This document shows, piece after piece, positions 7,177-63,985 of a stretch of DNA of 64,000 nucleotides (position 1 is the stretch's first letter; each line of letters starts with the position of its first letter). The notes beneath the pieces were generated by a model, which was given only the letters and a program-made list of their open reading frames with translations, did not search any database and was not told the origin of the DNA. The stretch is from Scenedesmus sp. ARA3 (Eukaryota > Chlorophyta > Chlorophyceae > Sphaeropleales > Scenedesmaceae): contig RWJK01001206.1 in NCBI GenBank assembly GCA_004335835.1, positions 163,344-227,343 on the forward strand. The letters run 5' to 3'. Both the position numbers and the translations under genes were made by a program.

Positions 7177-8591
7177 TCAGCTGCCCAGCAGTGGATCCTG
7201 CACATCCTGCTCTCCCTCGAGTGCCTCCTGCGCCGCACTTGCGCTGCTGACAGCTTCCGCATCAGCGCCCAGCAGCTGCTTCAGCCAGGCTGGTGCAGAC
7301 GGCACTGGGCGGGTGCGGGGCCGTGCAGCTGTCTCATGGCACAGCGGGCTGCATCATATAGCCGGGCAGCGGCAGCAGGGGCAGCAGGAATGGTTGCAGC
7401 GTGTCAGCAGCCGCAGCAGTGGTCGATTGCAGCAGCAGCATCAGGCTGGCTGATGGTAGTGGTTGCAAGCCGTCATCACTGTGTGCACCTTTTTGGCTGC
7501 CATAGTCTGACAGCACCTGTTGACACAGAGAAGTACGCTGGTCCGGATTACACAAACCATGACATAGCCAGAACATTCACAAGAACCACTGCCGCATGCG
7601 GTGCTTGTAGTAAACTTCACTTGCACTCACTTCTGGTAGTTTATGAGGTAGGCCAGGAAGCCGGAGCACAGCCCGATGAGCATGCCGGCATTCACATCCG
7701 CAAAGTCGTGCTTGTAAGCTGCCACGCGGCTCATGGTGATGAAGGCAGCAAAGCCCAGTGGAGCCAGGCACAGCATGACCTTGGCAAAGTGGCCCTACAG
7801 CAGCAGCAGCAGCAGCAGCAGAAGCAGCAGCAGCAGCACACATATCGTACATAGGAGTGGGCATAACATCCTCAGGGCTTATTGTGATGAAGGCGGCAAA
7901 GCCCAGCGGGGCCAGGCACAGCATAACCTTGGCAAAGTGGCACTGCACCAGCAGCAGCAGCAGCAGCTGCAGCAGCACACAATGAAATGTTCAAGTCTGG
8001 GCACAACATCAACCACGCTGTTGTATCAATACTGTGTACACTTCCAATATTAAAGTGTCGCGGAAACTGCTTCAGGTTGGTCACACAGAGAAGCAGACAA
8101 TGCAATGGCACCTACTTGAGACTGCCGTGTGAACAGCTTGAGCTTGGCCATCAGGTAGACAGACAGCAGCCCAAAGGCCATGAACGTCTCTGCGGCGTGC
8201 CCACTGGGGTAGGATGTGCGGCCGTCATTGATCACTGCAGGATCGCCAGTTGCCACACGCGCATACCTGCAGCCATGTGAAGTATGTGTTGTGTAGTTGA
8301 AGTTGCCGCGCAGAGCAGCACGGCACGTCGCAGGCTGATCTTGTGCCAGAGTTGTACAGTCTTACATGCACAAGACAAGGCGCATAGGTAAAGAGGTCCT
8401 GCGGACGAGGATGTGGGAGCGCATTTGGCTGAGCAAGCTGTGTGCCGCTGACCATTTGGGTGTGCGTGTTTGCATGCACTACCAGCTGCAAACTGCTGCT
8501 GTGGCTACTGCTGTTGCAGAATTGGCTGTGTTGCTGTGGCTGCTGCTGCTGCTGCTGCTTTTGCATGACGAGCTGTTGGTGTTAGTGCTGC

Positions 8592-8624
<33 letters not shown>

Positions 8625-10945
8625 ATGATCAGCTGTGGTGCTGCTGCTGCTGCTGCTGCATGATCAGCTGTGGTGCTGCTGCTGCTGCTGCTGCATGATC
8701 AGCTGTGGTGCTGCTGCTGCTGCTGCTGCATGATCAGCTGTGGTGCTGCTGCTGCTGCTGCTGCATGATCAGCTGTGGTGCTGCTGCTGCTGCTGCGCAC
8801 CAGTCAGGCCTTGGCTTGCCCACCAGGTTCATCCACCTGCAGCGCGGGACGACACAGGGCAATTGATGAAGAGAAAAAGCAAGGCAGTGCTGACTGCAGC
8901 CACTGCTGTTGGTAGAGGACCAGTGCATGCGTGTTGCGGCGCACACAATACACTGCGGCAAGCAAACATAGTGGCATCAGCCTGCTGAGCTACTCAAATT
9001 TAGCGGGTTGTCAAGCCAGCCGCGTAATGCGGATATTTATGTGCCGCTGTAAATTGCACTGTTACAGTTGCTGCACCTGCTGTGCACTGCTAGAACCGCA
9101 GGCAGCCAACTGTGTGCCCTCAATCTGTCTGCCTTGAATATGCGCACTGCTGCTAATGCTGCCTCACTTTTTGAATGAGGTCTCAATAGCAAAGGCCTCT
9201 ATCAGGGCAAGCGCAAAGTGGTGCCTGCAGTAAACGCAGCATGATGGCATTGTTCTCTGTGGTCAATGGTCAGGTGCACAGCGGTGACTCGGAGACCAGG
9301 CAACTGTGCGGCATAGCTGTAATATTTGTTGCTCAAGCTCGACTTGTGTGCTGGTCGCTTGCCAGCAAACACTATGCTGCCTTCACTGACACTCATAATC
9401 TCCGGCACACCAAACCTGCCAGCCACCCACACAGGCGATCTTCACACATGCTGCTGCGCTACACCCGGCTGGCGCAATACCAGCTGCTATGGCCTCAGCA
9501 GCAGAACATAAGCAGCACTCACCAGTCAACCATGCTGCGGCTTTCAAGCTGTGCCAGTGCAGCCACCAGCAGTGGGATGCCAAATTCCACTGGGAACTTG
9601 CCCTTCTCGCTGACCTGGTTGCTCAGTTATTTCTTGCAGGCTGCTTGCTTGCGCGATAGCACGACTGTTGCTGCTGCTCACGTTACCACCTGAGCACTGG
9701 CATAACAAAGCTGCAAGCCACCCATACGGGTGATTGCACACGTGCTGCTGCGCTACACCAGCTGCTATGCCCTCACAGCAGCAGAACAAAAGCAGCACTC
9801 ACCAGTCAATCAGACTGCGGCTTTTGAACTGTGCCAGTGCCGCCACCAGCAGAGGGATGCCAAATTCCACTGGGAACTTGCCCTTCTCGCTGAGCCAGCT
9901 CTTGGTAGGTGGGTAGCTCAGCGAGGGGTCATTCGGGACATGCTGCTACCTAAATTGCTTTTTTCTATATCCCTACCTGAGCCACTGGCGCACTAAAGCT
10001 GCAAGCCGCCCAGAGGCCGGCGCACACATATGTAGCTGTGCTAACACTTGCTTAACCTATGGCAGTGTGGCTGTACTCACCAGTCCACCAGGCTGCGGCT
10101 TTCAAACTGTGCCAGTGCTGCCACCAGCAGTGGGATGCCAAACTCCACTGGGAACTTCCCTTCTCACTGAGCCAGCTCTTGGTGGGCGGGTAGCTCAGCG
10201 AGGGGTCATTCAAGAGTTGCTGCTACCTAGATTGCTGCTACCTATATCCCCACCTGAGCCACTGGCGCACTAAAGCTGCAAGCCGCCTGTGCCCACAGGC
10301 GGTCGCACACACATGTAGCTGCGATACCCCTTGCTTGCTCCGTGGCAGTGGGCTGTACTCACCAGTCAATCAGACTGCGGCTCTCAAACTGTGCCAGTGC
10401 AGCCACTAGAAGAGGGATGCCGAACTCCACTGGGAACTTGCCCTTCTCACTGAGCCAGCTCTTGGTGGGTGGGTAGCTCAGCGAGGGGTCATTTGGGAAC
10501 CACATGCGCTCCAGTGGCGGAATCACCTGCATTTTGATGGGTATCAGATGCCTTTGTAGATAGATAAGAAAGCGGATTAACCATTGCATGCAGCGCGCAT
10601 GCTTTGTGCCAAACGATCGTGATATGTGTGTGTGGGGTGTGGCGGAGCATGGCGTGCTGCTGCTGTTGTGCTGCTGCTGCTGCAGCCCTTGCCGTAGCAC
10701 TGGTTGCCACTACCAGCGCTTCAAGTCCAGATTATCAGCAGTTGGTTCGAAATGCACCTAGCTGGCATGCAATGCACAAGGGGTGCTGTGGTGCTTGCCT
10801 CTCCTGGAATGGTGAAGTTGATGATGATCAGCGTCAGTGCAAGCAGCCAGTCCCAAATGTAGCCAGCCAGCAACAGCCACTTTACGGCTGTTATTGCTGC
10901 CGCTCGGCATCTTAGGCCTATTGGAAGCGCCTTGGCACGGAGCAT
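7177..10945 (-). CDS. LPP: PAP2-family lipid phosphate phosphatase
   Basis: Integral-membrane phosphatase of the PAP2 superfamily, expected to dephosphorylate phosphatidate or diacylglycerol pyrophosphate. Exons (minus): 10799-10945, 10363-10526, 9168-9224, 8801-8836, 8116-8266, 7631-7794, 7177-7348, total 891 nt, 296 aa. An N-terminal hydrophobic segment (about residues 20-46) is followed by a PVEFGIPLLVAALAQF segment, then the three PAP2 catalytic motifs: KPRP at 130-133, SYPSGH at 153-158, and SR(5x)H(3x)D at 207-218. The first ATG in frame is at 10945. Oddities: the Lys of the canonical K-X6-RP motif is replaced by Met125 (Lys122/123 are nearby); the first intron uses a GC donor (GAGAG|GCAAGC); exon 2 is followed by three tandem partial copies. 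Divergent with the gene starting at 11301. Family call is strong; substrate is not known. Confidence 0.88.
7799..7840. repeat. CAG/CTG run abutting a 3' splice site
   Basis: CAG triplets on plus, which is CTG in the sense of the PAP2 gene, directly upstream of the acceptor of exon 7631-7794. The CTG run stands where a pyrimidine tract would be expected. A second partial copy of the same exon start with its own CAG run lies at about 7884-7975. Confidence 0.85.
7884..7975 (-). repeat. Echo of PAP2 exon 6 acceptor side
   Basis: Sequence nearly identical to 7737-7840: the first part of exon 7631-7794 (codons for FAKVMLCLAP and following residues) with its CTG tract, one unit upstream in the sense of the gene. 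The copy gives another potential acceptor but lacks the rest of the exon. Confidence 0.8.
8523..8797. repeat. 35-bp CTG minisatellite with TGATCA core
   Basis: After an interrupted CTG run (8533-8622), a 35-bp unit made of GCATGATCAGCTGTGGT plus CTG triplets is repeated from 8623, 8658, 8693, 8728 and 8763 with no visible divergence. It lies inside a PAP2 intron, just after the donor of exon 8801-8836 in the sense of the gene. Each unit carries the palindrome TGATCA. Confidence 0.95.
9523..10510 (-). repeat. Four tandem copies of PAP2 exon 2 (~280-bp unit)
   Basis: The donor ends of the copies are at 9523, 9803, 10081 and 10363, spacing 280, 278 and 282. Each contains most of exon 2 (PSLSYPPTKSW to ESRSLIDW) and a good donor. 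Only the copy at 10363-10526 has the 5' part of the exon (VIPPLERMW). The 10081 copy lacks one base in the GGCAAG codons and is frameshifted; the 9523 copy is shorter. These are downstream echoes or possible alternative exon ends. Confidence 0.92.
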
Positions 10946-11300: not shown

Positions 11301-14300
11301 ATGAGAACGCTGTTCTTGCTGTGCCTCCTGCTCGGCTGCGTAGCAGCCAAGCACAAAGATAAGGACGCTCCAGAATGCATGTGGCACGACTACCTCCGGC
11401 ACGATAGAATCAGCGCATGGGAGTTCCAAGCACAACCTCACAGGCACATGGTGAGTCTGCACTGTGTACATCTGCTACTCTTGCCCTCTTCAACTCATGA
11501 AACAACGTCGCACTGACCACTCGATACGTTGTATTATGATCTTTACAGATACGCCACAGAGACAAGGCCATCTCGCACGTGGAGAAAATCCTGCAAGAGC
11601 TGTCTGAAGACCCAAGCAGTGGAGTGCAGTTTGTGCCTCACTCCCGCACCATGGCAATCTTCAAAGAAACCTCTTACATGGTATCCAGCAGGCATGGACA
11701 CCCGATCCACAGAGACCCTGAGCATCCTAAGGAGAAGCCCTTTCCATGGAAGGGACTGGGTTACCTGCGGTGCGCACACCTGGCGTTGCTGCAGCTGCTG
11801 GTGCTACTAGTGCTGGTACTCGTACTGCAAAGCAGCTTCTTGCTAGCGAGACATGGTTGTGTGTGGCTCTTGTATCGCACTTTCTGTCGCTGCTGACATC
11901 CGCTGTGCAAGCTGCAGCCGCACAGATGCAATCATGCCCGCTTCATGCCTCTGCCTGCTGCTGCTGCTGCTGCCGCTGCAGGAAAAGGCAGTACAAGATC
12001 CTGACACCTGCCGGTGCCTACGTGCCATCTTCCATGCCTGGCATGGCTGACGTCACCTTCAAAATGAAGCTGGTTGACCCTGACACTGCGCCCGGGGAGC
12101 TGCAGCTGCAGCAGCAGGTGAGGATAGGTTTAACCGTGTGGCTCATACGAGATAACTGTAGATGGTTCCAGGGCCCCCACACACAGCTGCACTCTTGTCC
12201 ATAAGCGATGCTGGCCGAACGAGCAGGTTGCGATGCTTAAACTTGGCGCTTTACATCCCTGCTGCGCAGTGGCAGATCGGCTGCTTGCAGGAGGCTTTCT
12301 GTGGGTGCAGGAGTGTTGTGAATGCAATGCAGGGAGCCGGCAAGCACTCCAGAGATACGTGTAGAACAGGCCGCCGCCTCTCATGCCGCTGCTTTCGCAT
12401 TCGCCAACTTGTTGCAGTGGAATCTGCGGCGTGCCTGACACTCCTCGTCAACTGCTGTTGCTGCTGCTGCTGCTGCCTTCGCTGGTGTGCTGCAGGTTGG
12501 TGCCGCCAAGCTGACCGCCAAGGTTGAGTTTGACATCCACTGCGACCACGGCAGGCCCACCATGTCACCACGTGCGCAAACTTCTGGTGTGGGGTGCTTT
12601 TTGGTTGGGTTTTTTTGTGTCTGTTAGTGCCACGCTCCATTGCTTCAAGACACCTCGTGCCTGCCATGTCTGGAATCGCGGCAGGCCCCCTATGTCGCCA
12701 CATTAGTGACGTACCATGGTGCTGGTTGTTTTTGGAGTCGATGTTTTTGACTGTAAACCAATGGCCGCTCGCATTGCTTCAAGCCACCTTACGCCTGCCG
12801 TCCTTGTGACCACGGCAGGCCCACCATGTCACCACGTGAGCCAACTACTGGTGTGGNNNNNNNNNNNNNNNNNNNNNNNNNNNNNNNNNNNNNNNNNNNN
12901 NNNNNNNNNNNNNNNNNNNNNNNNNNNNNNNNNNNNNNNNNNNNNNNNNNNNNNNNNNNNNNNNNNNNNNNNNNNNNNNNNNNNNNNNNNNNNNNNNNNN
13001 NNNNNNNNNNNNNNNNNNNNNNNNNNNNNNNNNNNNNNNNNNNNCACGGCAGGCCCACCATGTCACCACGTGAGCCAACTACTGGTGTGGGGTGCTTTTC
13101 GGTTGGGTTTTTTTTGTGTCTATCATGATAAACTGATCAGTGCCGCGCTCCATTGCCTCAAGACACCTCGTGCCTGCCGTTCTTGTGACCACGGCAGGCC
13201 CACCATGTCACCACGTGATTGACATCATTGGTGGCGGGTGCTGTTGTTTCAGTGTTCTGTGTACACAGCTACCACCCTTTTCGCTTTGAGACACCTCATG
13301 CCTGATGTGTCTGCAACCTTAGCATGTCACCATGTGAGTGGCACAGCTGGTGCCCATGTTACGTGTTCTTTCCTTGCGCCTGTTCAGTGTTTCAAATGGC
13401 TTCTGTTGTTTTAACGCATCATGGCTGGGCTTACAGTAGCTGTTGAGGCACATCAATAATAGCTGCGCCGTTGCTGAGATGTAATCGGTATTTTCAGTCT
13501 CTTCACTGTGCTCCACGTCACCACTTCATGCCTGCCTGCATCCACTGCAAAGGTGGTCTGCAGAACGAAAGCCAATCGTGGTGACATTGTCAGCTTACAA
13601 TATCCACAGCTACCGTATCAGCGGCTGTTGCAAGCCCACTATGACACCACGTAGGCAGCGCCATCATGTAACGGTGTTCCTTTGTTTATCAGAGTGTTGG
13701 GAACCGCCTTTCCATTGTTGCAGCCCACCTCCTGCCTGGCATCCAGGCATCACAGTAGCTGTGTATGCACGTCTGATGTAGCCGTTCTGTTGCATGCACG
13801 TGCTCTGGCCTGCCACTGTGCAATGTGCATGTTTACCATTGCATTGTGCCCTGTAGTGTAGTTCATGTTCAGCCAAGACAGGACGTCAGCAGGATTGCCA
13901 ACGTACGAGAGATTTACAGCAACTGCATACAACCATTTCATGCTGAAATATGCGGCATTGTGCTGCACTGCAGTGTACCATCCAGTGAGCCAAGATATCA
14001 ACTTCAGCAGGATAACAAAGTGTGCCAGCCTTAACTGTGTTGAACAACATTGTACTGCATTGTACTGCTGTGCAGTGTACCGCCCAGTCAGCCAGGACAT
14101 CGATGTCAGCAAGATCGCCAATGTGCGAGATTACTACCCAAACCTTGCGCAAGTTGCGCGCCTGGATGAGAACGAAGCGCTGCCCTTTATGCACGAAGTG
14201 CACAGGGCCAAGATTGTGTGGACGGTGGTGTTCAAGGGCGTGGTGGGAGAGGTGGGTGTGGCAACAGTTCAGCTGCAGGAGAGTGCTGAATGGCATTGCA

Positions 14301-15702
14301 AAATACGGTGGTGTGGGTTCTCACCCCTGCCACAAACCTCTGCTGTCCTGTATGTGTTGCCTGTGCTTCGGGATTTGACATAAATATGCTGGACCTTTTA
14401 CCAGCCAAGTGCGTCAGCTGCGGGCCATGCTGCGGCAACCGCCCTTGCAACCGCCGCCACATGCGCAGGCCAACCTTGTGATCAAGTACAACACCAATTT
14501 TGAAGATGCCGTGGCAGGCCGGGCACTTGAGAACAGCTGCATGTGAACTGCAGGCGCGTGTCTGTCTACTGATGTGTGCTGCGCTGCTGCCCCTGTCTCT
14601 TGCTGCAGGCGAACTTGGTGATCAAGTACAACACCACCTTTGAGGATGCAGTGGCAGGCCGGCTGCCCAAGAATGGAGAGCTCAGCCTGCGCATTCGGCG
14701 CGAGGTTGCGGAAGCAACAGGCACCAAGGGGGAGGATGCTACCAAGCGGCTGTATGCTGCACTTGATGCAATTGGAGATGCAATGCAGGTTCGTATGTGA
14801 GGGGGTGCAGTGTAGCACTTGGCAGTGATTGGGTGACGAGCTGGGCACTGTGCACCTTGCAAAGGTCTGTTGCCGACTTTGATCTGCTCTGTCTGGATGC
14901 GCCACCGCAACTGCATGGAGCCGCCAGGTGCAGCGCTGCTTGCCCGTTGCTCTGTTGAATCTTCTGAAACGAACCGCCTGTACATCATGTTTGAGTCAGG
15001 CAACCAGGGTCGTCCTGACGCTGCTGCTGCTGCTGCTGCTGCACGTTGCCGGGCTGCTGCTGCCTGCAGGTCTCGTGATGCTGGTTGGGATGCAGCGCTT
15101 TGTTTGATCTTTCACATGGATCACTTGCATTCCATACGCAGGTCACGCAACAAAGCTGGCACTAAGCATGCTCCTGCTGCTGCTGCTGCACATTGTCGGG
15201 CTGCTGCTGTGTGCAGGTGTTCCGTGATGCTGGCTGGGACGGCAAGACGCCTCCACTGCCGCAGCCAGAGCAGAAGAAGAAGCACCACAAGCACCACGGC
15301 AAGCACAGCAATGCAGCAGATGCTGCTGCTGCTGCTGCTGCTGGGCTGGATGAGGTGCTGGAGGCCTCGTTTGAGGAGGAGTTCATGGTGCAAGGGGACC
15401 GTGAACTTGACCATGAAGACGATCGTGAGGATGAGGACAATGAAGTTTATAAAGCAAAGGATCGTGGTTCAGCTGCAGCAGCAGCAGCAGCAGGCAATGC
15501 AGGCGGCTCTGCTGGCCCCAGCGTGGAGGCAGTGAAGCTTGCAAGGGCAGCAGCGCTGCGGCAGCAGCAGCAGCAGCAGCAGCAGCAGGTGGCAGGGCCC
15601 CAAGTGGGATGGATGCGTCCCTGGTGGCAGCAGCAGCGCAGCGTGCAGCTGCAGCGGCTGCGGGGTGGCGGCAGGGAGGAGAAGGGTCCTGTGGCGTCCT
15701 GA
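11301..15702 (+). CDS. Secreted or ER-lumen protein of unknown function
   Basis: Not recognised. Exons: 11301-11450, 11549-11769, 11982-12117, 12496-12571, 14076-14251, 14609-14788, 15217-15702, total 1425 nt, 474 aa, frame intact. The N-terminus MRTLFLLCLLLGCVAA is a clear signal peptide with a cleavage-like site near residue 16. The middle (about 50-290) is soluble and well mixed in composition with no cysteine pattern or hydrophobic span that I can see. Near residue 330 there is a basic/His stretch (KKKHHKHHGKH), then an acidic stretch, and a Gln run coded by CAG triplets near the C-terminus. Exons 4, 5, 6 and 7 each have junction echoes in the neighbouring intron, and intron 4 contains a long array with an N gap, so a missing exon there cannot be excluded, although exons 4 and 5 join in frame. 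Confidence 0.75.
12536..13655 (+). repeat. Tandem array of exon 4 end plus donor (~135 bp)
   Basis: The end of exon 4 (codons for DHGRPTMSP with its CACGTG donor context) recurs at about 12680-12705, 12810-12836, 13045-13078, 13190-13218, 13310-13335 and 13625-13652, first nearly perfect and then increasingly decayed. Spacing is about 120-140 where adjacent copies can be measured. The N gap lies inside it, so the true copy number is unknown. Confidence 0.88.
12857..13044. other. Assembly gap inside exon-4 array
   Basis: 188 N within a tandem array; flanking sequence on both sides is the same repeat unit, so the gap probably reflects repeat collapse rather than unique missing sequence. Confidence 0.95.
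13868..14125 (+). repeat. Acceptor-side echoes of exon 5
   Basis: The start of exon 5 (VSQDIDVSKIANVRDYY) is preceded by two diverged copies at about 13868-13930 and 13984-14030, spacing roughly 106-114 bp. Both lie upstream of the real exon, as expected for duplications that span an acceptor site. Confidence 0.8.
14463..14545 (+). repeat. Acceptor-side echo of exon 6
   Basis: Codons for ANLVIKYNT-FEDAVAGR occur here 146 bp upstream of the same sequence in exon 14609-14788, preceded by a CAG that could act as acceptor. The reading frame then stops (TGA at about 14546), so it is a truncated copy. Confidence 0.85.
15063..15105 (+). repeat. Acceptor-side echo of exon 7
   Basis: A decayed copy of the last exon's start (FRDAGWD-like codons after a CTGCAG acceptor) lies 148 bp upstream of the real acceptor at 15216. 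The intervening CTG runs are also duplicated (about 15020-15060 and 15172-15210). Confidence 0.75.
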
Positions 15703-16880: not shown

Positions 16881-17224
16881 ATGGGGCGCTCCCCATCACC
16901 TGGCAGGGACCGAAAGCGGTCCTATGCAGACGAGGATCGCAGCGAACGCGGTAGCAAAAGGGCCAGGGAGGATGACATACGCGAAGATAAACGAGATCGT
17001 TATGCAGAGGACGGCAGGCGTGACAGGGAGCGCGGGCGCTCGGACCACGACAGCAGGAACAAAGACAGCAGAGACAGGGCAAGGGACTTGGACCGAGGCA
17101 GGGAGCGTGATGAACGGCGCAGGGAACGCAGCAGGTCACGTTCTAGGGACAGGAGGCGCAGGTGGGCCTTCATGTGCAGCACTGTACTGGCATTGTGCTG
17201 TAGGTTTGTGCAACAGCAACAGCG

Positions 17225-17257
<33 letters not shown>

Positions 17258-20200
17258 GCTGCATGGCAGCTCTAGGCTAAGCACTCAAGCAGCAATGCGT
17301 GCATGTGTTGCTGGTCACTCGTTGCAGCGACAAATGCGTGAGCGCATGGAGCGCAAGCAGGTTGCATGCGTAGTGACAGGAGGCGCAGGTGGGAGCGGAT
17401 AAGCAACAGAGCGTTGGCATGGATCTTTAGACAGCCTTCTGAGCAGCAGCAGCAGCGGCAGCAACAGCAGCAGGTGCCTGCTTCAGTCCAAGCTCAGGCA
17501 GCACATCATGCATCGGGTGGTTTTCGTTACAATGATCCAGCACATGCGCGGGCACATGGGGCGCAGGCAGGTCGTGTGCTGCAGAGCATGCGCCGCGTGC
17601 TTGCTTGTGTGTAGTCAAGCCTGCATGTTCCACACCCTATCAGCCACCATATGGTGAGCGGCTGTCTGTGATGCAACACAGTGATGTGAATTTTATATGC
17701 TGCAGCATTGTGCCTTGAAGACCAGCCATAGCATCACTTTGTGGTTGCCCTGTGTGTATTTCCTGCAGGTCCCGCAGCATAGATCGCAGCAGGGAGCGCG
17801 AGCCAGCCCGAGAAAGGGAAAGAGACCGCGGCTTGGGCTACGCAGATCGCCAGAGAGACAGGGAGAGGCGGCGCGACAGCAGCAGCGACCGGCCGCCGCG
17901 GGCATCAGGCGGCAGCAGGCAGCAGCAGCAGCAGCAGGAACAGGATGAGGAGGGCGAGCAGCAGCAGCGGCCGAGCTCCGGTGATGCTGGTGCAGCGAAT
18001 GGCAAGGCAGCTAAGGCAGAGGTGAGGTGCCTTGGATGGAGTGGGTGCAGCAGCAGCGGCAGCAGCAGCGGCAGCAGCAGCAGCGACAGCAAGCGTGGAG
18101 GTGTGCTACCGCAGTGTTTTCAGCATGCAGTGGTTAGCCTGTCTTGTCATAGTGACGGTAGCAGCAGCAGCATTGCATGCAATACTGAGCATCAGCAGCA
18201 GCAGCAGTAGAGGGCTGCAACACCATCATGTGAAATAGGATCAAAGTTTTTTTATTAGCTCTGTGCTGTTGGGGGTGACTTATTCGCTCACCAGGATATC
18301 ACAGCAATCACAGGGAGTGCTGGTGTTTTGAGAGGCGGAGAGATTGCATGCCGCGCATGCAGGCATGCTGGCAATACAAGCTCGTTTGCATGTGTTACAT
18401 GCACCCCTGTGCATGTCATGTGTGCTGTGTCGCATTACTGGCATTCTGTGCTGCGCTGCCTGCCTCGCTTGTCTGCTGCATGCTGCAGCCGCTGTCATTG
18501 GAGGAGCTGCTAAAGAAGAAGAAGGAAGAGCAGGAGCTGGCAGCAAAGGTGAGATGCTGCAGCACAGTACAGCTACAGCAACACACAAATCAAACATGCA
18601 ACACACCGGAAGCGTGGAGAGGCAAACACAGCTAGGTGCAAGCATACATGTAGCTGCATGTACTGATTGACTGATAGACGCCTCTGCTGCGGCAGCTGGT
18701 ACAAGGAAGGTCAGAAAGGCAGCTGCAAGGAAGCACGTTAGTGATTTGAACTGTGTTGCAAGCAGTGATAGCCAGTCGGCTCAAATCTTTAAACCAAGCA
18801 ACACACGGAAGGTCAGAGAGGCAGCTGCAGCAAGGCCCCGGCAGCTGTCTGATACTACCTTCCAACATCACATAGCTGCTGCTGTGAAACAGCAGCAGTG
18901 GGGCGGGGAGTTTTCGGGCGCGCGGCGGAGTCATGCTGCGAGCCATCAGCCACCCGCTCGACACGCCACCACCCTCATCAAATTTCCAGCAGCACAGTGC
19001 TTGATTGCTTGCAGGAACAGTCATAGTATGCTCCCCTGCTCTACACATCACAGGGCATGCCCAAGGTTACTCTCTGCTCCTGCTGCCATTCTGTCCCCTG
19101 GCAACCTGTCCCACGTTGCAACCACCGCACACATCCTGCACAAACTACACACATCCGCAGCCCAAGTTCCTGTCCAAGGCTGAGCGGCAGGCGCTGGCAC
19201 TGCAGCGGAGGCAAGAAAAGGCTGCGGAGCTGCGCACAGCACAGGATGAGATGCGGCGCCTGCAGGCTGCGCAGCAGCAGGTGAGCGATAGTGTTTGCAG
19301 CGTGCTGACTCAACACTACGCAGCAGCAGTTGCAGGAGCAGAATGAAGGGCGCGTTGAAATATTTTTCGGTTGCTGTAGCTGCGCCAGATGGTCCCCGCC
19401 TGCTCCCCTTCATTTTTGCTTGCAGGACGAGATGCGCGCAGAGGCGATGCGGCGCGAGGCAGACACAGGGAACTCATGGCTGGGGTAGCTGGACAGCCGC
19501 AGCCTAACCTCTGGGTTTGTGTATTGTTTGGCTGTGCTTGCAGGACGAGATGCGCCGTGCAGAGGCGATGCGGCGCGAGGCAGAGCGCAACAGGCATAGG
19601 GATGAGCGGGAAAAAGAAAAAGAGCTGGAGCTGATTCGAAAGCAGTACCTGGTGCGTGCGCCATGCGCCCAGGTTTCGTGGTTTGGATTTGGCTGATGGC
19701 ATGTGCAGTGGTGCGCATGATGATAAGAACGCATGCTTACAGCTCACTGAGCACCTGTGCACACATGCCGGTGTTAGGCTTGCGCTGCAATAAGATGCTG
19801 TGTGTTGTTTGCTGTCGTAAAACCCAGGGCGACAATACGAACACACTGTGCTTGTGTGCTGCACGGGTAGTGGGTGTGGAGCCCAGGGGCGCCGCCCCTG
19901 GCCACACACACCCTCTTAGCCTTAACTTACCCAGGAGCTGCAGAGCTGCCTGGGTAGTCACTCACTCACTCACTTGTGTGCTGCAAACCACTGTCTGAGT
20001 TCATCAAATGAAGTGTTTCTCTTTCCCTTTTATGCTGCAGGGTGGCGACATGTTGAAGACGAAGCAGGTGGTGGTCAAGGCCAGCGAGAAGTTCCGCTGA
20101 CGCTGTGCTGTGGTGTCTTGCCTCTGCCCACATGCACGCAGGGTGACGACAAGTTCAAGAAGAAGAAGGTGGTCAAGGCCAGTGAGAAGTTCCGCTTCAA

Positions 20201-23200
20201 CTTTGACTGGGACGGCAAGGAGGACACCAGCAAGGACCTCAACCCGCTGTACAACCACCTGCACCGTGAGCGCCTTGTTGTTGTTTTTCTTTAGGGAGTC
20301 TGTTTTGGTTTGAGACGTGTTTCTGTCATGGTTTGAGATGTGTTTTGGAATCAGATGTCAGGGCAGCTCGTGTTATCGCATGGCACTGACTGCTATGTTA
20401 TGATTTGTCTATCCTTGCATGCCCTTAGTCCACTTGTCTGTGAGCAGCAGCAGGATTGCTTGACGGCCTAACGCCGTCGCGACATTGCTGCCGGTGTGCA
20501 TTTGCGCTGCAGAGGCCAACCTGCTGTTTGGGCGCGGCATGCTGGCAGGCATCGACCGGCGCGAGCAGAAGAAGGTGGCCGCCACAGTGGAGGTGCGCTT
20601 GTTGCGGGTTAAGGGGTGGACGGCAGTGCTTCTTGTGTATGAATTGCATGAGCAGAAGAAGGTGGCGGCGGCAGTGGAGGTGCGCAGCCTTGCATGGCAA
20701 TGCTAAGATGGTTTTGGTTGTTCCATGTCACCTGGTGGACGGCTGCAAACATGGTGCGATTAATCAACAGGTGTGGCTGTTGGTCCAAGGCACACAGAAC
20801 CTGCTGCTTGGCATGGCTGCCATCGCACAAGTGATCTGTGGTCAGACAAAGCCCTACACATCTTAGAATGCTCAACACACCCAAGAACACCTTGCACTCA
20901 AGGCTGTCAAGGCCTGCTTTCCTTGGTGGCTTACAAGTATGTATCATAAGTTGATGTGCTTTGCAATGGCAGGCCGACATGCTGAAGAAGCTGCGCGGCG
21001 CTGCCGGCATCGTGGAGACCAGCGACATGCGCGCGGCAGCGCGGGAGCGCGAGGCGCGCGCAAACAAGTATGACGGCTTCGACATGACGGTGAGTGGTGT
21101 TATTTGTACACCACAGCCTGTCTGTAATACGGCTTTCAACAGCATCCTTCCTACATATAGGCGTTTGCAGACAAGTACGACGGCTTCGACATGACGGTGA
21201 GCAGCAGTGTTTGAAACAACAGAGCGTTCTTGCTCATGCCTGCTGCAACACATGCCGTGCCGCAGGCGGACGTGCACTGGAGCGGAAGCCCCTCAACAAG
21301 ATGAGCGAGCACGACAGGCTCAGCCGCATACAGCTTCAGCAACATACAAGCATGCACACCTCACTCCTGCTCTGTCGCACTGCTTGTGGTTCTCTTGTGC
21401 CGCAGACTGACGTGCACTGGAGCGAGAAGCCCCTCAACAAGATGAGCGAGCGCGACTGGCGCATCTTCAGGGAGGACTTCAACATCAGCTACAAGGGCAA
21501 CGCCAACACGCTGCCGCTGCGCAACTGGGACGAAGCAGGCCTGCCGGAGCCCATCCGCATGGTATGCTGGGTTGCTTGGTTGTTTTTGCCTTTTTTGCTT
21601 AATTGGGGCATTGTGTATGCTGCATTGCTGCTGCTGGGACGATGCGGGGCTGCCAGAGCCCATCCGCATGGTGATTGCTGCGCTGCTCTGCATTTTTGCG
21701 TTGCAGCTTTATGCGGTGTGCTGTGGGCTCAAGGGGGCTGCTTGTTGAGGTGATGCGCAATGCTAATGGCTCAAGTAGTTGTCTGGCGCCACTGTGGTTT
21801 GGCGCAAAATGGCTGCTGCATGGCGACTGGCGCAACAGTGATGTTGCAGATGGTGCTGATTGGTGACTCAGGTGGTGGCAGCGCACCTTTTGAGTGGAAT
21901 TAATACGCATTGCCTTTGTTTGTGTGGAAGACGGTGATGATGACCAAATGACTTGATCTTATCTATGAACGGCGTTGCCCCGCAGCAGCAGCCTGCCACG
22001 CAGCACCATGCTAGCATGCGTGTGTGCTACCAGGCTGCTGCTGCGTCGCAGGCGGCGCTGACTGTTGAGACAAAGGTCCTGAACCGTTACACATCAATTG
22101 AACTTATTGCTGCTGTGTTTTGATGAGACTTGTTCAAGATTTGACATCTCCGCTGCAGTGCTGTGCCTAGAGCGCGCACTTCAGTCATGTATGTGTCAAG
22201 CACAATCTCATCTGCATTGCCACATGCACCCGAGTGTCTCTCTTCTGTTTTGTTTCAGCACACCACGTTTGTACGCAATTGAATATGTGCGTACTACAAG
22301 CCCTCACCCAATAATTTCATCGACTTTCTTATCTCCACACATCTGCATCATTCAAACATGCTTGTGCATGCGATGCCTTCTTGTGCGCAGGCTGTCGATT
22401 CTTTTGCAAGCCTTCCCATCCAGATGGCCTCATCGTCTGTTTCATGTCAACACATCTGCTATGCAACATGTGTGTTTGCATGCCATGCCCTCTGCTTTGT
22501 GCTCAGGCCGTCGACTTTGTGCAGTATGACAAGCCCTCTCCCATCCAGATGGCCTCCATCCCTCTGGGCCTGAAGCAGCTGGACGTCATCGGAGTGGCAG
22601 AGACAGGCAGCGGCAAGACAGCGGCCTTTGTCATCCCCATGCTGTGCTACATCATGCGGCAGCCAGTCATGGACGAGAGCAACTACGCAGGTGCGCTGGC
22701 ACATCTTGCATTGTTGCGTACTGCAGGCTCTTGTCATGATGCCGATTATTTGCTGTGGCTGTTACATGTGTGAAGAGGGTGTTGGCGGCACCAAATCGGT
22801 GTGCGCCTGGCTTTGGCTCACAAGCATAGCTTGTCACAACCACGTCTGGTGCATAGCTTGTGGTAGACAGCCGCCTTTGTCATCCCCATGCTGTGCTACA
22901 TCATGCGGCAGCCAGTCATGGACGAGAGCAACTACGCAGGTACGATGGCGCGCTGCTACAGCCAATGAACAGCTGCATTGAGCCATGAGAGGCGCAGCAC
23001 GACTGCATGTGTGCTGTGCGGACCTGTACCAAGCAGGGCTGGATCGGCCCGCATGCCAGTGCGTCTGGTGCTGAGGGTTGGCAGAACGTATGTAGAGATG
23101 GCGCAGAGCTAGCATCCTCGTCTCCGTGATGCCACCCATCTGTCCTGCTCGCAACTCACCAGCTTTTGCTGCCGCGCTGCTGCTGCGCCTGCAGACGGCC

Positions 23201-24423
23201 CGTACGCTGTGGTGCTTGCGCCCACGCGTGAGCTGGCGCAGCAGATTGAGGAGGAGACAGTGAAGCTGGCCAAGTACACAGACTTCAAGTAAGTGCGCCG
23301 CGCCTGCTGTTGCATTATAATTATGATATCCCGAGCTATGTGCATGCATGGTATAGCTGTGCAGCAGATTGAGGAGGAGACAGTGAAGCTGGCCAAGTAC
23401 ACAGACTTCAAGTGAGTGTGTTGCTTGTGCTGCTGCCTCAAGAGCAGTAGAAGATTTGTACATGCGTTTGTTTTGTGCATCAAGTTGAGGAGGAGACGGT
23501 CAAGCTGGCCAAGTACAAAGAACTTTAAGCAAGTCGCTGCTGCTGCCTCGCATCAGTCGAAGCCATGTGTGCTTGGCTGTGGCCTTCATTTACATGCTCA
23601 GTGTCATCCGAGCCCGCCGAGTGGCGAACATAGCAGTAACCATCTTAATCACCATTGTAAGCCTCCCATCTGCAGTCCGTTGCATTGCATGCTGCAACTG
23701 GCTCCGACTTGAATGCACACACTGCTACTGCTCATCCGCACTGCGCTCCTCTGCTGCAGGGTGACATCGGTGGTGGGCGGGCAGTCGATTGAAGAGCAGG
23801 GCAGCAAGCTGCGTCGCGGCTGCGAGATTGTCATTGCAACACCCGGCCGCCTGCTGGACTGCATCGAGCGCCACTACTGCGTGCTGAATCAGTGCAACTA
23901 CGTGGTGCTTGATGAGGCAGATCGCATGATCGACCTGGGCTTCGAGCCGCAGGTGGGCTGCTGGAGATGTGCCAGTATGTTGGCTGTATGTATGACTGCG
24001 TGTTTGACTGCGCTATTGACCAGTATAACCTGTGTGGTGCTGGATGAGGCGAATGGCATGATCCACCTGGGCTTCGAGCCGCAGGTGAGCTGCTGGAAGT
24101 TTGACCGCATGTTTTACTGTATGTTTAGACCGCGTGTTTGACTTCGTAATTGACCAGTATAACCTGTGTGGTGCTGGATGAGGCAGATCGCATGATCGAT
24201 CTGGGCTTTGAGCCGCAGGTGGGCTGCTGGAGGTTTGACCACGTGTTTGACTGTATGTTTTGACCGCTTGTTTGACTGCGTGATTGACCAGTGCTACTAC
24301 GTGGTGCTTGATGAGGCGGATCGCATGATTGATCTGGGCTTTGAGCCACAGGTGGGCTGCTGGAAGTTTGACCGCGAGTTGACCGCGCATGTGACTGCAT
24401 GTTCTGTGTATGTTTTGCTGCTG

Positions 24424-47600: not shown

Positions 47601-49472
47601 CCTCCAGCCGTGTGGTGGTGCTGGAGGGCATCTATGCGCTGAATGAGAGGCTGAAGCACCTGCTGGACCTGCGTGTCAGCATTGCAGGTGAGGCTTGCAG
47701 GAAACACGTGCCGCTGGAGGAGCTTGGGCGGCTTGCAGGAGACGTCTGCAGCTTGCAGGAAACACATGAGCCTTGCAGGAAACATGCATGGCCCAAAGAC
47801 ATGCGCTTGAGCGCCGCGGTGAACGGGTGACATGCACATCTGTTGCTGGATGCGGTTCGTACGACTTGCAGGCAACACGTGCGGCTTGCAGGAAAACACA
47901 CGCGGCTTGCAGGAACCTTGCGGGCTTGCAGCGCATTAAGGCACCTGCTGGACCTGTGCGTAAGCAGTGCAGGACGCCGCGCAGATAGTGTGCAGTTGGT
48001 TGCTGTGTTCCTTTGTCCTGTCATTGCAACTCCTCCATCTTTGCTGCTGCTAACACTGTTGTGGCTGCTGCTGCTGCTGGATGGCAGGTGGCGTGCACTT
48101 TGACTTGGTCAAACGCGTGCTGCGCGACATCAGCAGGAGCGGGCAAGGCCCTGAGGAGATCATCCAGCAGGTGGGAGCTGCTGCTGCTGCTGCTTGAGGG
48201 GTTCAGCCTCCTCATGTCATGTTGTTGGTTCAAGCTCCTGCTCTGCCAATTGTGGGTGCGCTGTGTTACTCAGACAACTGTTGTCGTGTTGACCCTGAAC
48301 ATGCCCCTTGTCTACAACCTCAGCCTCACTAGTTGAACACCCTGTCACCAGCACTTGTTGCAACACACGCAGACTTGTTGCAACACACGCAGATCACGGA
48401 CACGGTGTACCCAATGTACAAGGCCTTCAATGAGCTTGGCCTCAATACTGCTCAGCCTCACCACCGTTCTTTCACAGCCTCAGTCTTACCTGTCACAATG
48501 ACTGTTACTAACACATGTCATGTAACACACGCAGATCACGGACACGGTGTACCCCATGTACAAGGCCTTCATCGAGCCGGACCTCAACGCTGCTCAGCTG
48601 AAGATCCACAACAGCTTCAACCCCTTCACCGGCTTCATGAACGCCACATATATTTTGAAGGCCAAGAGGCAGCAGGAGCTGTCGCAGCAAGCCGTGGTGG
48701 CGGTGCTCGGGGTAAGGGTTTGCGGTTTAACATGCGGTTTGTTTGATCATCAGGGTTTTAAGTTTGGTGTAAGGGTTTGGTTTTATGAACGCGTACTTTC
48801 TCAAGGCCAAGAGGCAGCAGGAGCTCAGTCAGCAGGCGGTGGTGGGGGAGCTCGGGGTGAGGGTTCTGCAGTTATCAGAGATGCACGACATCCACCTGCT
48901 GCCGCCAAACGAGGAGCCCGAGACCTGCGCCAGCTGGCTGCAGATCACTTGGCTTCACTTGCAAAATTGGCTGTGGCGCTGACCGAGTATGGTGCTTTCT
49001 TCTTGTCATTTTCTGTCGTTTTATGTTGGCAGGCTGACGCAGTGACAAAGACCGAGTCGGAGATGTACGACATCCACCTGCTCCCGCCAAACGAGGACCC
49101 GGAGACCTGCGCCAGCTGGCTGCACACCATCCTGTCATAACCTCCGCCCATTCTGCTTTCTGGATTCCTGACTAACGTGTCAAAGGTGTTGCCAAAACCT
49201 CTATCTGACCACATTTCTGTCTTGTTTCTAACTGCGTGCTGGTCTTTACAACTTCAACTTCTGCATGCGCGCAGGCTGACGCGGTGACCAAGACGGAATC
49301 CGAGATGTACGACATCCACCTGCTGCCGCCAAACGAGGACCCCGAGACATGCGCCAGCTGGCTGCGCATGCGCAACAGGGACGGCCGCTACACGCTGCTC
49401 TTCGAGGAGTGGGTGACTGAGGGGCCTTTCATCATCAGCCCGCGGTGAGTGTATTGCTGCTGCTGCTGCTGC

Positions 49473-59100: not shown

Positions 59101-61959
59101 CACACCCGCAGGCAGCTGCTGATCAGTGGTTCACGTCTGTGAAAGCCCTGCTGCTTGCAAGCCCTGCCTGCCCAGAAACAGCCAAGGCACACCACTCGCA
59201 TAACAGTGACAGCACCTTCCCCGAATCTTGCGGAATGCAAGGAGGCATACAGCTATATGCCCTATAGGGTTGACGTGCAAGCAACAGGCAGGCATTTCTG
59301 ATGTTTGGCAAGCAGCAGGCAGGCATTTCAGATGTTCGGCTAAGGTGGTCTATCTGAAGGTTGCACCCAGCAGCAAGCTGGCGCACCATGTGCCCCCTGT
59401 CATATCCTGAGTCCTTGAAATCGTCCAGCCTGTTCCTCAGCCGCGGCTCCAGCCCCTGGTCCTCATAAAAGGAGGAAGACTCACTGCAGCAGCAGCAGCA
59501 GCAGCAGCAGCACCGGCAGCAGCAGCAGCAGCACTTGTTTGGTTATTTGGGGCTATGTAGTTGCGCGGCTCCAGCCCCTGGTCCTCATAGAAAGAGGACG
59601 GCTCCCTGCGGCAGCAGCAGCAGCAGCAATAACAATGGTTGGGTAGTTGGGTCTGAGCAGTCAAGGCTCCAGGCCCTGGTCCTCATAGAAGGAGGACGAC
59701 TCCCTGCGAGGGCGGCAGCAGCAGCAGCAGCAGCAGCAGGTTTAGGGACAAAGGTCTGTTTGACACCACCATAACGCTCATCCCACAAGTAATTGTCAGG
59801 CCTGCAACCAGCAGCTTGCGTATAGTACCACATGCAACAGACGGTGACTATGTGTGCTGTCTGTCCTCAGACTGCGTACCAAGTGTCACGATGCATGCGC
59901 AGCAGCTGCCACAGTAAGCCGTCAACACCTTCCTCCCATTGAAACTGGTGCTGTTTTCACATCTCACCAAGTCACAGACAGATGAGGTATTGACCTACTT
60001 GTCAGCTTTGGAACGTCACGCGAACGTTGAGGTTTATCTTTTCTACTACAAAAGTTGGCTTCCTTGCATCGATCGCGTGCCCTCCCACTGCAAGCTCTCT
60101 TTGGTGATGTGCTCCAGCACCCACATAAAACTGGTGATGTGGCCTAACATTTACTATTGCTTATCTTCACTTTGCGTAACTGAAGGGTCACACTGCAGGT
60201 GCAGCAGCCGCACTCGTCTGTCAAACATCCGTCAGGGCCACCAGGGCGGTTTGAGGCGCTGTGATACACCCTATTGAAACCTATGCTTACCGCGTGCCCT
60301 CTCCCTGCAGGCTCTCCTTGGTGATGTGCTCCAGCACCCACTTAGGGTTGCAACATAAAATTGGTGATGTGGCCTAACATTTACTATTGGTTATCTTCAC
60401 TCTGCATAACTGAAGGGTTACACTGCAGGTGCAGCAGCCGCACTAGTCTGTCAAAACATCAGTCAGAGCCACCAGGTCGGTTTGAGGCGCTGTGATACAC
60501 CCTATTGAACCCTATGCTTACCGTGTGCCCTCCCCCTGCAGGCTCTCCTTGGTGATGTGCTCCAGCACCCATTTGGGATTGCGCGTGCGGCCGTCAAAGC
60601 TGGCCACAAAGCCCTCGTAAAACCGCAACGTGTCTGTCTGGGGGATGCCTGCAGACAAGGCAAAGTAACAGTGATCTGTCAAAGCTGGCCACAAAGCCCT
60701 CGTAGAACCGCAACGTGTCTGTCTGGGGGATGCCTGCATCAACGCAAATCAACAGCAACCAGTCAAAGCTGGCCACAAAGCCCTCGTAGAAGCGCAGCGT
60801 GTCTGTCTGGGGGATGCCTGCAGCAAGGCAAAATTACACCAACTTTTTGATGGAGGCCAAAAAGCCCTGGTAAACGGCAGCGTGTCAATCTGGAGGATGC
60901 CTGCAGCATGGCACAGTGACTTGCCAAAGCTGGCCACAGAGCCCTCGTAACACTGCAGTGTCCATCTGGGGAATGCCTGCAGGCCAGAATACCAGCAGCG
61001 CATCACAAGGCGCACGAATGGGTAATCTTTGCCACACTGCTTTATGCTGTGGGTAAGATGACAGGAATGAGATCAGCGGATGCAGGGCCTGGTGTTTGCA
61101 GCTGTCCGTGCCAGGAGGCGGTCCCTGCCAGGAACTCGGCACATGCCTGGTATTAATGGCTGCAATCAAAGCATTCAACAGTGCTCAGCTCTGCTGCTGC
61201 TGCTGCTGCTGCTGCTGCTCACCAAACTTGAAGGCCGAGTGCACCCTGAACACAGATGCCTCATCAGAGGCTTTGGGCCCTGCACAAGTCACACAAATCA
61301 GCAGCACGGCGGATACGGCAGAAATTAAGCAGCCAATTGTCAGCAGTGGCTCCCACTGGACGCATAAACTACCAGACTATGATCCCCAGCTAAGTGTCTG
61401 CATTAAGCCTCAGCGGGGTAGATAGTGCATGCATGCAGAGCATGGCAGCGCAGCAGTCCAGGACCATCTGCAAGTTGCTGCTCCTGCTCCTGCTCCTGCT
61501 GCTGCGTAATACACTGCAGTGTGTTTTTGCTCACCGCCAGGGATGAGGTCTGCTGCTGGGGCTTTTTGAACAACACTTGCAGGGGAGCGGTTGAGGTAGG
61601 CATAGGCGCCCCCTGCACCTATGCCTGCCCCAACAGCAATGCCTAGTGCGACACTCCTAAACCTGTGCCCATCGTATTTACAGCGTTCGCAGGAAAGTAA
61701 GATCAAAATCAGTTTGTGGTTAAGGGCAACATGAGCAGCAGGTGTTGCTACAAGGACCAAGCACATGACAAGCAGCAGTAGCAGTAGCAGCACCAGCAGC
61801 AGTAGCAGTGCTGCCCACAGGTATACAGCAGACGCATCTGCGAAGGGACTGGTGCTGGCTAGCAACTTTTTTGTTATACTGTGTGCTACTTAATGGTTTG
61901 GAAGAAGCAGGTGATTGCAGCAATTCGAAGAGAAATATCGCCAACCTGAGATCGAGCAT
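55503..61959 (-). CDS. ENDOG: Endonuclease G (NUC1/CPS-6 type), mitochondrial
   Basis: DNA/RNA non-specific nuclease of the mitochondrial intermembrane space. Exons (minus): 61946-61959, 61535-61662, 61223-61279, 60522-60648, 59750-59801, 59387-59479, 58994-59068, 58699-58764, 57767-57863, 57297-57485, 56440-56598, 55503-55708; 1263 nt, 420 aa, frame intact. After a 14-nt first exon (inferred), RFRSVALGIAVGAGIGAGG is an N-terminal membrane/targeting segment. Then FKFGIPQTDTLRFYEGFV, RNPKWVLEHIT, the catalytic DRGHM (His156), NHRASQKAMNDTFSLSN with the metal-binding Asn near 178, FNRDYWARFEKFVK, VYIVTGPLWLP, VSVPTHYYKVVL, FVMPN and VPLEALE. The C-terminal ~65 residues after CDVLACKLPAERWW are Gly/Ser-rich. 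The donor after exon 5 (TTT|GTCCCT) is weak and the first exon rests on phase and start only. Confidence 0.93.
55709..55740. repeat. (CAG)n at EndoG last-exon acceptor
   Basis: CAG on plus, CTG in the gene's sense, abutting the acceptor of exon 55503-55708. A longer pure run lies in the same intron at 56151-56195. Confidence 0.9.
56665..56722 (-). repeat. Echo of EndoG exon 11 acceptor side
   Basis: Copy of GAKFFPGFVNDKRRAAL codons with its CAG acceptor, about 125 bp upstream in the sense of the gene; it reads FVNNKRRAALP and then a stop. Confidence 0.88.
56945..57200 (-). repeat. EndoG exon 10 donor echoes and CTGTACTGC repeats
   Basis: The donor end of exon 57297-57485 (AGCGTGGCTG|GTGAGC in sense) recurs at 57164-57195 and, diverged, at 56950-56985. 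Between them a 9-bp unit (CTGTACTGC on plus) is repeated in groups of three, separated by TGGCTCAAATGC, making a ~48-bp higher-order unit in at least three copies. Confidence 0.85.
57901..58698. other. Long EndoG intron with homopolymer tracts
   Basis: Intron between exons 57767-57863 and 58699-58764. It has no coding echoes, but C runs at 58141-58152, 58507-58530 and 58647-58655, and T/A runs near 58290 and 58570. It is visibly richer in A/T than its neighbours. Confidence 0.6.
59432..59720 (-). repeat. Three copies of EndoG exon 6 start (~120 bp)
   Basis: Codons for SSFYEDQGLEPR with CAG/CTG tracts occur in the real exon (to 59479) and again at about 59560-59605 and 59662-59705. The (CAG)n tract on plus after each copy is the sense CTG tract before each acceptor. 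Confidence 0.92.
60089..60560 (-). repeat. Donor-side echoes of EndoG exon 4 (~225 bp)
   Basis: The end of exon 4 (WVLEHITKESLQ) recurs at about 60090-60128 and 60308-60345, downstream in the sense of the gene, with the intervening intron sequence (AGGTGCAGCAGCCGCACT, ATTTACTATTG) also duplicated. Spacing is about 225 bp. Confidence 0.92.
60590..60976 (-). repeat. Five acceptor-side copies of EndoG exon 4 (~84 bp)
   Basis: Copies of the exon start (IPQTDTLRFYEGFVASFD) have acceptor edges at 60648 (real), 60733, 60817, 60900 and 60976, spacing 85, 84, 83 and 76, decaying with distance. None but the real one has the downstream half or a donor. Each unit is about 63 nt of exon plus 20 nt of intron, so the copied introns would be far too short to splice alone. 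Confidence 0.95.
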
Positions 61960-63093: not shown

Positions 63094-63744
63094 CTACTGC
63101 TTGCTGGCCTGCGCTGCTACTGCTGCCTCTGCTGCTGGCAGCGTCAGCAGGCCCTCCTGCAGCAGCTGCTGCACCTGCTGGCTGAACGAGTGCAGCGGGA
63201 AGCCCACCACGTTGAAATAACAACCTGTTATGCCTGTTACAAATGACGAGGCAGCGCCCTGGATGCCATAGCTGCCTGCCTTGCCAAACGGCTCGCCTGC
63301 AAGGCAAGTCAAGAGGGAGTGCAGCAGCAGCGCAGAGCAACATGATGTGCTAGCAGCAAGACAGATGAATGCGCAGGTGGTGGGCAAGATGCAATCTGGC
63401 CATGCTGCACACAGCAATGCAAAGTTACGTGAACTATTTGTCTACAGCGCGAGGTGTCACTGGCTGACGCCCGTTTCTAATGTTTGATCTTGCTGCACGG
63501 GGGGCAAGCAGGTGAGCAGCCTGGAACGTATGGCAGCACGCACGATAGCTCACTGGCAGATGCAACTGCAGTCGCACCTGTGTGAATGTACGCGTCTATC
63601 AGTTCAGTAGGCAGCTCATGGAAGAGCACGTTGGTGGTCTCAGAGAAGGTGCGGCAGAAGGGGCCCTCCTGGCCCTCTGGCACAGGCGCCTGCGGCAGCA
63701 CCAGCGCCACGCCGGTGTGCACGTGGTGGCTGCTGCCGCTCAAG
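63094..63744 (-). CDS. Maf-like nucleotide pyrophosphatase, C-terminal part
   Basis: Maf/ASMTL-type house-cleaning pyrophosphatase acting on non-canonical or pyrimidine nucleoside triphosphates. Two exons on minus: 63578-63744 and 63094-63296, joined at [16 protein letters not shown]. Family landmarks are [15 protein letters not shown], a Phe-Thr/Ser-E-T-T-NV segment (FSETTNVLF), [18 protein letters not shown] with the conserved D-K-A-G position read as [16 protein letters not shown], and a short Ala-rich C-terminus ending ASKQ. The Lys-Ala-Gly-Ser-Tyr-Gly core is intact, the preceding Asp is Gly. N-terminal exons with the SxxR nucleotide-binding motif lie beyond the right edge. Confidence 0.88.
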
Positions 63745-63985
63745 CTGCATGGAGGAAGCAGACAATTGTGTGAGCAGCGGCAGGTCAGTGTCAGCAGCAG
63801 TATGGCAGCGGCGACACCAGCGCCACGCCTGTGAGCACGTGGTGGCTGCTGCCACTCAAGCTGCAGCCCCAAAATAGGGAGTTTGTTGAAAACAGCGGCG
63901 GCAGGTTAGGAGTCAGTAGTATGGCAGCGGAAGCACCAATGCCACAAATGTGTGCACGTGGTGGCTGCTGCCGCTCAAGCTGCAA
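63705..63985 (-). repeat. Three acceptor-side copies of a Maf exon (~120 bp)
   Basis: The exon start ([15 protein letters not shown]) recurs with acceptor edges at about 63744 (real), 63864 and 63983. The outer copies read HHVLTGVALVSP and a more diverged HHVHICGIG and lack the remainder of the exon. The right edge of the window cuts the intron, so there may be more. Confidence 0.88.

Follow-up and report, generated by a model that had tools for sequence, protein, structure and literature searches.

The window, by which we mean the whole stretch of 64,000 nucleotides analysed here (positions 163344-227343 of contig C867, in an assembly of 87.27 Mb and 1567 contigs), carries on its forward strand a gene for a PRP28/DDX23-type DEAD-box splicing helicase (17110..27903), assigned by identity and a splice-aware gene model. 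The helicase shares 97% identity with a protein of Scenedesmus sp. NREL 46B-D3 (exon-joined, 473 aa), and the PRP8 of the same genome is 96% identical to that of Tetradesmus obliquus over 1250 residues; the two comparisons point to a Scenedesmaceae-like green alga as the source. Both genes were modelled from the relatives' proteins, which a splice-aware dynamic program aligned to the genome sequence; this gave 37 exons for PRP8 and 20 for PRP28, those of PRP28 upstream of 19580 being unreliable. Other loci were modelled with our own ab initio predictor, partly trained on these two genes. Tested on them with a looser intron penalty than in later runs, it called 32/37 PRP8 exons exactly, with none missed and 24 extra, and 11/20 PRP28 exons exactly, with one missed and 19 extra; the extra exons were mostly very small, and several were echoes in the sense used below. 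All counts come from this one genome, and splicing is read from sequence models, not RNA.

Thirteen exon boundaries of the PRP28 gene are accompanied by echoes, same-strand copies of an exon's end that lie within the adjoining intron. Donor-side echoes, which copy an exon's 3' end into the downstream intron, were found by self-BLAST at 20650..20685 (exon 20513-20592, offset 87), 21159..21201 (exon 20973-21089, offset 107), 21634..21687 (exon 21406-21561, offset 109), 24713..24777 (exon 24480-24634, offset 141) and 27083..27162 (exon 26873-27012, offset 117), and by self-comparison at 22865..22949 (exon 22507-22690, 96.5% over 85 bp, offset 249). Three exons have a series of them: exon 23195-23288 is followed by two echoes (23361..23549), exon 23760-23952 by three with a unit of ~133 (24034..24380) and exon 25819-25969 by three (26179..26467). 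Acceptor-side echoes, which copy an exon's 5' end into the upstream intron, lie at 21257..21322 (exon 21406-21561, offset 140), 22317..22431 (exon 22507-22690) and 26672..26775 (exon 26873-27012), all from self-BLAST, and as a series of five at 25274..25779, upstream of exon 25819-25969.

Further echoes in the window adjoin exons of ab initio models. On the forward strand, there is a donor-side array at 12541..13245 (exon 12496-12571), an acceptor-side echo at 14465..14522 (exon 14609-14788), six donor-side echoes at 44668..45775 (exon 44601-44702), a donor-side array at 45991..46487 (exon 45942-46055) and one echo on either side of exon 48535-48711 (acceptor-side 48379..48456, donor-side 48779..48873). 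The reverse strand holds three donor-side echoes of exon 10363-10532 with a unit of ~280 (9404..10498), an acceptor-side array of four echoes of exon 60522-60648 with a unit of ~84 (60593..60982) and an acceptor-side array of exon 63578-63732 (63692..63990). Runs of N at 12857-13044 and 44994-45217, either assembly gaps or withheld stretches, fall within two of these arrays (those of exons 12496-12571 and 44601-44702), so that copy numbers there are uncertain. Altogether, the models give 35 echo-bearing boundaries for the window. PRP28 accounts for 13 and the rest are on ab initio models, so that the count of at least fifteen boundaries in six genes offered by an earlier sequence-only reading is a conservative one.

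The window contains other repeats as well. An array with a unit of ~184 bp at 52021-52782 is anchored to no called exon. Related leucine-rich-repeat-like genes, a label that is our own reading of the translations, are clustered at 28950-39510 and include an inverted pair (28950-30036 versus 35864-34753, 70%). A 35-bp minisatellite of 5.5 copies with 100% matches sits in CTG-rich surroundings at 8604-8796, and many GCA/CTG-type trinucleotide runs are spread across the whole window.

Several comparisons establish the echoes and their geometry. When the window was compared with itself, 94 of the 105 non-self HSPs were direct repeats. In a tblastn search, the relative's PRP28 protein matched the live exons and, in addition, partial copies inside introns, such as an 18-residue peptide at three places and a 12-residue peptide at four. 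We then took 50 introns, 36 from PRP8 and 14 from PRP28 (one of the latter with an unreliable 7-bp upstream exon; PRP28 introns whose acceptor precedes 19580 were excluded), and compared each with its flanking exons. A match to the intron above the 99% level of the null was obtained for the last 80 bp of the upstream exon in 21/50 introns and for the first 80 bp of the downstream exon in 14/50. Reverse-strand echoes were found in 0/50 on the donor side and 0/50 on the acceptor side (0/100 together), and the wrong-exon-end controls exceeded the null in 0/26 and 1/27 (1/53). Self-BLAST of the two genes returned 55 exon-intron pairs, 11 intron-intron pairs within echo families, one exon-exon pair and two intron-intron pairs outside such families, of which one measures 24 bp and the other has its members 1.1 kb apart; none of the pairs was inverted.

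The same arrangement recurs elsewhere in the genome. Across 16 chaperonin and aminoacyl-tRNA-synthetase loci on 16 contigs, chosen as a conserved-gene sample with ab initio models, 222 HSP pairs had the predicted geometry (47 with the echo itself called an exon), 0 were reversed and 11 were mid-exon; in 15 of the remaining pairs both copies were called as exon, 17 pairs were whole-exon and 45 belonged to echo families, three lay purely within one intron, one lay between introns and four were without assignment. The rest of the window yielded 41 right, one wrong, three mid-exon, six purely intronic (from two places) and 23 other pairs. Five 10-kb stretches picked without regard to genes, where models are weak, gave six right, two wrong, seven with both copies in called exons and nine others. 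At four kinesin loci, exon-anchored pairs were right in 4/4, and one further pair without assignment has a second copy that extends to the exon start defined by the profile, which makes an acceptor echo probable. Profile matches alone, on contig C1492, show three chaperonin matches that all begin at profile position 45 and three that end at position 376. Thus, the phenomenon is confirmed as real and as reaching well beyond the window; the geometry, which the sequence-only reading had held to be regular without exception, is overwhelmingly but not literally always so. In another DEAD-box gene (L005:2484-3068), matches of the 'APTREL' exon to the PRP28 protein occur at four places side by side, and three of these matches are partial.

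The repeated unit has a characteristic size. Successive junction copies are spaced at a median of 127 bp (IQR 114-147, 5th percentile 98, n=308), and among 149 nearest echoes, with those beyond 180 bp excluded, 94 have 30-60 bp of exon in their unit, while in 91 the remainder of the unit measures 60-90 bp. Exon-part length varies widely. The exon share is peaked, though shares under ~20 bp are undetectable. A single echo accompanies 104 of the 185 echo-bearing exon ends; 49 ends have two echoes, 18 have three, and 14 have between four and six. A sharp drop in similarity past the splice motif had suggested that only exon sequence was copied; this idea was dropped, as gap-tolerant extension recovered significant intron homology past the junction in 61.8% of donor (n=68) and 61.0% of acceptor (n=77) nearest pairs. 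Whole units were therefore duplicated at least in these ~61%, with intron homology undetectable by the same extension in the other ~39%. The copies are local, same-strand and head-to-tail, with the intron flank co-duplicated, as in tandem genomic duplication; the unit is not wholly exonic, as it would be in intron gain by AGGT duplication, but spans an existing junction, and the echoes sit inside existing introns.

In some young arrays, the outermost exon copy is flanked by sequence that is hard to align with the spacer. Arrays that end in an exon copy with an outer flank seemingly unrelated to the spacer are what a mobile element or introner might leave if it inserted near junctions and duplicated its target. 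Against such an origin, the 31 weak cross-locus matches among 482 called introns form no family, most of the nearest spacers (~61% in gapped alignment) are homologous to the flanking intron, and the length of the exon part is far from constant. We rejected this origin, which we find scarcely credible, as related copies at many loci were not found among those 482 introns.

We consider it probable instead that tandem duplications recur across exon edges, are absorbed by introns and then decay. Duplications of ~95-150 bp would straddle the edge of a coding exon, mostly at a splice junction, again and again, with each unit taking in mostly 30-60 bp of exon and 60-90 bp of flanking intron. The exon-adjoining copy would stay in use while the intron takes up the duplicate and grows by one unit, leaving the mRNA unchanged. 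New copies would tend to arise beside the live exon, so that older ones lie farther out, and absorbed copies would then decay, showing no clear trace of being selected for either splicing or coding. The fit of the relatives' protein models to the exon-adjoining copies suggests that these are the ones spliced, and we infer that nearer copies are younger and that fixation is neutral.

The order of copies within arrays is consistent with outward displacement. The sequence-only reading proposed that similarity falls with distance, and 75 arrays with two or more echoes were compared for this: in the exon part, the nearest copy resembles the live exon more closely than the farthest does in 42, less closely in 26 and equally in seven (p=0.019), and in the intron part the nearest is the more similar in 52 arrays and the less similar in 22 (p=1.7e-5). 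When echoes of all arrays are grouped by rank, the mean identity of the exon part shows no trend, being 0.87 at ranks 1-3. Introns with echoes are also longer. After exclusion of introns beside a called exon of <45 bp, 289 introns were kept, of which 98, about a third, bear echoes; their median length is 410 bp, compared with 286 bp for the 191 without. Intron length rises broadly with the number of echoes, and the stretches from junction to farthest echo make up 21.6% of 108.7 kb of intron sequence. Recurrent duplication of junctions is thus associated with greater intron length, of which it is a plausible cause. The picture of tandem, same-strand units that span the junction, hug their own exon and accompany longer introns is borne out, and duplication as the normal way in which introns expand fits about a third of the introns tested in this one genome.

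What becomes of the copies can be read from how they differ from the live exon (pairs called mid-exon or anchored at both copies were excluded from the divergence tables). Differences at codon positions 1, 2 and 3 amount to 0.061, 0.059 and 0.172, and the equality of the first two is not what coding constraint would produce. Sites where both echoes agree against the live exon number 22, 21 and 219 at the three positions, an excess at position 3 that fits synonymous change in the live exon. Only 12 of 76 gaps in the exon part are multiples of three, so that 64 break the frame, and echo spacing modulo 3 is near even (57/70/58). A coding function of the echoes is rejected by the codon-position and gap tests.

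Splice sites tell a similar story. The sequence-only reading had seen in the echoes a reservoir of spare splice sites, and they might indeed be functional as backup or decoy sites or as alternative exon ends under selection. Echoes that keep their GT or AG have motif scores like those of real sites (MWU p=0.57 for donors, 0.77 for acceptors), although a good splice-like motif in most echoes is expected of young copies anyway. Further in favour of function, exon parts diverge slowly, and exon-part divergence is slightly higher in echoes without the dinucleotide than in those that keep it (identity 0.819 versus 0.859 for GT, p=0.07; 0.822 versus 0.865 for AG, p=0.06), which could reflect age or relaxed constraint. 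However, 141/162 donor echoes still have their GT and 131/146 acceptor echoes their AG, close to the retention of 0.88 predicted as (1-0.06)^2 from echo divergence at codon positions 1 and 2; the dinucleotides are therefore lost about as fast as other bases of the exon part. Selection preserving the splice consensus was set aside on this ground: the dinucleotides show no clear advantage in retention over the other bases of the echo, as would be expected of functional backup sites. Where intron homology is gone, the acceptor motif is eroded (G at -4 in 0.72 of echoes versus 0.96 of their real sites), and real sites are equally strong with and without echoes (p=0.21, 0.87).

The end of the echo away from the junction likewise gives no signal of an inner splice site clearly above controls: acceptor scores exceed 2 in 38% against 31% of controls, and donor scores in 10% against 14%. 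In recursive splicing or at dual-specific sites, an echo junction would serve as acceptor as well as donor; the last bases of donor echoes (C 0.56, A 0.76, G 0.89) are those of ordinary exons and lack the near-fixed C of real acceptors (0.97). Mini-exons are rejected on the inner-end scores, and the splice sites at both ends together with an open frame that would mark cassette or mutually exclusive exons were not found. Taken with the frame-breaking gaps and even spacing described above, these results make selected function very unlikely; we see no clear sign in the sequence that echoes are used, and the idea of a maintained reservoir is not supported.

Decay is nevertheless uneven along the unit. 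In the 95 of 217 echo-echo pairs with intron homology, to which this comparison is confined, differences are fewer in the exon-derived than in the intron-derived part (mismatch 0.123 versus 0.189; gaps 0.008 versus 0.039 per bp). Plain neutral decay does not predict this slower divergence, which could stem from gene conversion from the live exon, from repeat-rich or low-complexity introns, or from weak constraint. Under concerted evolution, conversion from the live exon would refresh the exon halves, and echoes would be older than they look, a process compatible with recurrent edge duplication. Median identity of the exon part is 0.889 whether or not intron homology is detectable, 12 exon-echo pairs with identical exon 40-mers still mismatch at 0.194 in their intron parts, and, once past its first 5 bp, the exon part keeps an even identity of 0.87-0.91 throughout, all of which speak for conversion. 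Conversion alone leaves the centring on junctions unexplained and is here inseparable from weak constraint or context-dependent mutation, and we hold it to be rather unlikely.

A more demanding question is whether duplication is centred on junctions at all. The regular geometry is no independent evidence, since copies that landed in other positions would change the mRNA and be eliminated. Random duplications of ~125 bp, without junction bias, would leave exactly the observed geometry if exonic ones were purged and junction-spanning ones stayed recognisable through their conserved exon half, the exon-derived parts remaining alignable for longer. Such survivorship makes a prediction for intron interiors, where duplications should also persist. 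Of 286 introns without long N, we searched the 156 that were echo-free and 200-1500 bp long. Purely intronic duplication exceeded the 99% level of a cross-intron null in five of the 156, with 1.6 expected by chance, and one of the five, in L022, coincides in part with an exon matched by profile and could be a junction echo whose gene model is wrong.

Even at the blind sensitivity measured in single-echo introns (12/45), this is too few. Uniform placement on the observed structures gives an interior-to-spanning opportunity of 1.35 to 2.08; with ratios of 0.6-2.08 and sensitivities of 0.27-0.5, where 0.6 (deliberately low) and 0.5 are assumed, interior duplications are predicted in 18-118 of 289 introns, or roughly 10-64 in the 156. 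Purely intronic duplications thus look too rare, with a shortfall of about three-fold or more above the chance level whose size depends on the assumed values. The peaked exon share of the unit also speaks against unbiased placement, with the reservation about short shares given above.

A case outside splicing bears on the same point. In L017, the terminal chaperonin exon (6854-6918) is echoed in the 3' flank at 7009-7073, 155 bp on and 90.6% identical, and the echo carries the last 60 bp of the chaperonin gene, including its stop codon. A splice site is therefore not required, which favours survivorship; equally, since the echo spans the stop codon, the target may be coding edges and not splice sites. 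Echoes occur at 2/9 start ends, 2/19 stop ends and 175/665 splice ends (p=0.19, with gene ends few), and among the four start and stop cases the 'start' in L009 resembles a mis-called acceptor, the L017 stop alone having been read in the sequence. This stop-codon case, the scarcity of interior duplications, the peaked placement of the unit and the decay of the copies all go beyond the sequence-only reading. On balance, we judge survivorship without junction bias to be unlikely, less so than function or insertion. In our view, a mutational bias at exon edges, linked to chromatin, replication, or transcription and splicing, is more likely than selection for extra sites. The stronger proposal, that a mutational process aimed at exon edges (splicing-, transcription- or chromatin-linked) repeatedly stamps ~125-bp tandem junction copies outward into introns and is a main cause of their lengthening in this algal lineage, is one we can put forward only tentatively and with some doubt.

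Intron lengthening is usually ascribed to transposons and random insertions. Here, the added intron DNA is legible, being derived from the intron's own borders, and the results suggest that introns of this alga go on growing through short duplications with exon edges at their centre. If the duplications are junction-centred, a mutational cause of intron growth becomes testable by counting, arrays that confuse gene prediction are explained, and near-identical adjacent sites offer a natural experiment on spliceosome choice.

The underlying process, tandem genomic duplication, is already known from intron gain; its recurrence at existing junctions sets the present case apart. In the review PMC3443670, on intron gain by AGGT duplication, a local direct duplication likewise supplies splice sites and the extra sequence is spliced out. 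The duplicated AGGT segment in that case is exonic and gives rise to an intron that was not there before, whereas our copies stem from a junction already present, in many cases duplicated several times, and lengthen the intron beside it. The scale also differs, with 185 echo-bearing exon ends in ~280 kb here, mostly on ab initio models, against the 188 events in seven taxa of a table in PMC3443670. A duplication across an intron-exon boundary in potato RdRp (PMC4974935) takes in the 3' side of an intron and the 5' side of an exon, like our acceptor-side echoes; it is described as a single case, a new intron with a recruited donor, and neither arrays nor a donor-side counterpart appear in the passages concerned. 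Novel intron positions in Drosophila, according to PMC2891723, arose when coding sequence containing proto-splice sites was duplicated in tandem within a region and one of the copies became intronized; the process is similar but yielded a handful of new positions instead of growth of existing introns. Dual-specific splice sites and the UBC tandem array, as presented in PMC10809524, also involve tandem arrays of splice-like AGGT sites, but those copies are whole coding monomers bounded by sites that serve as donor and acceptor, whereas the copies here look noncoding and one-sided. Introners share the large-scale effect on introns; in the portion of PMC9860276 that treats them they are dispersed related elements, unlike copies homologous to their own locus only.

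Junction-centred, recurrent, array-forming growth of existing introns at such density was not found described in the open-licence PMC literature searched, at the level of titles, the starts of abstracts and selected passages; the word 'intron' is absent from PMC7955037 and PMC12571836. Mean intron length in Tetradesmus obliquus is given in PMC5966456 as 462 bp, against 230-302 bp in the four other green algae tabulated there, and by our own reasoning junction duplication may bear on these long introns.
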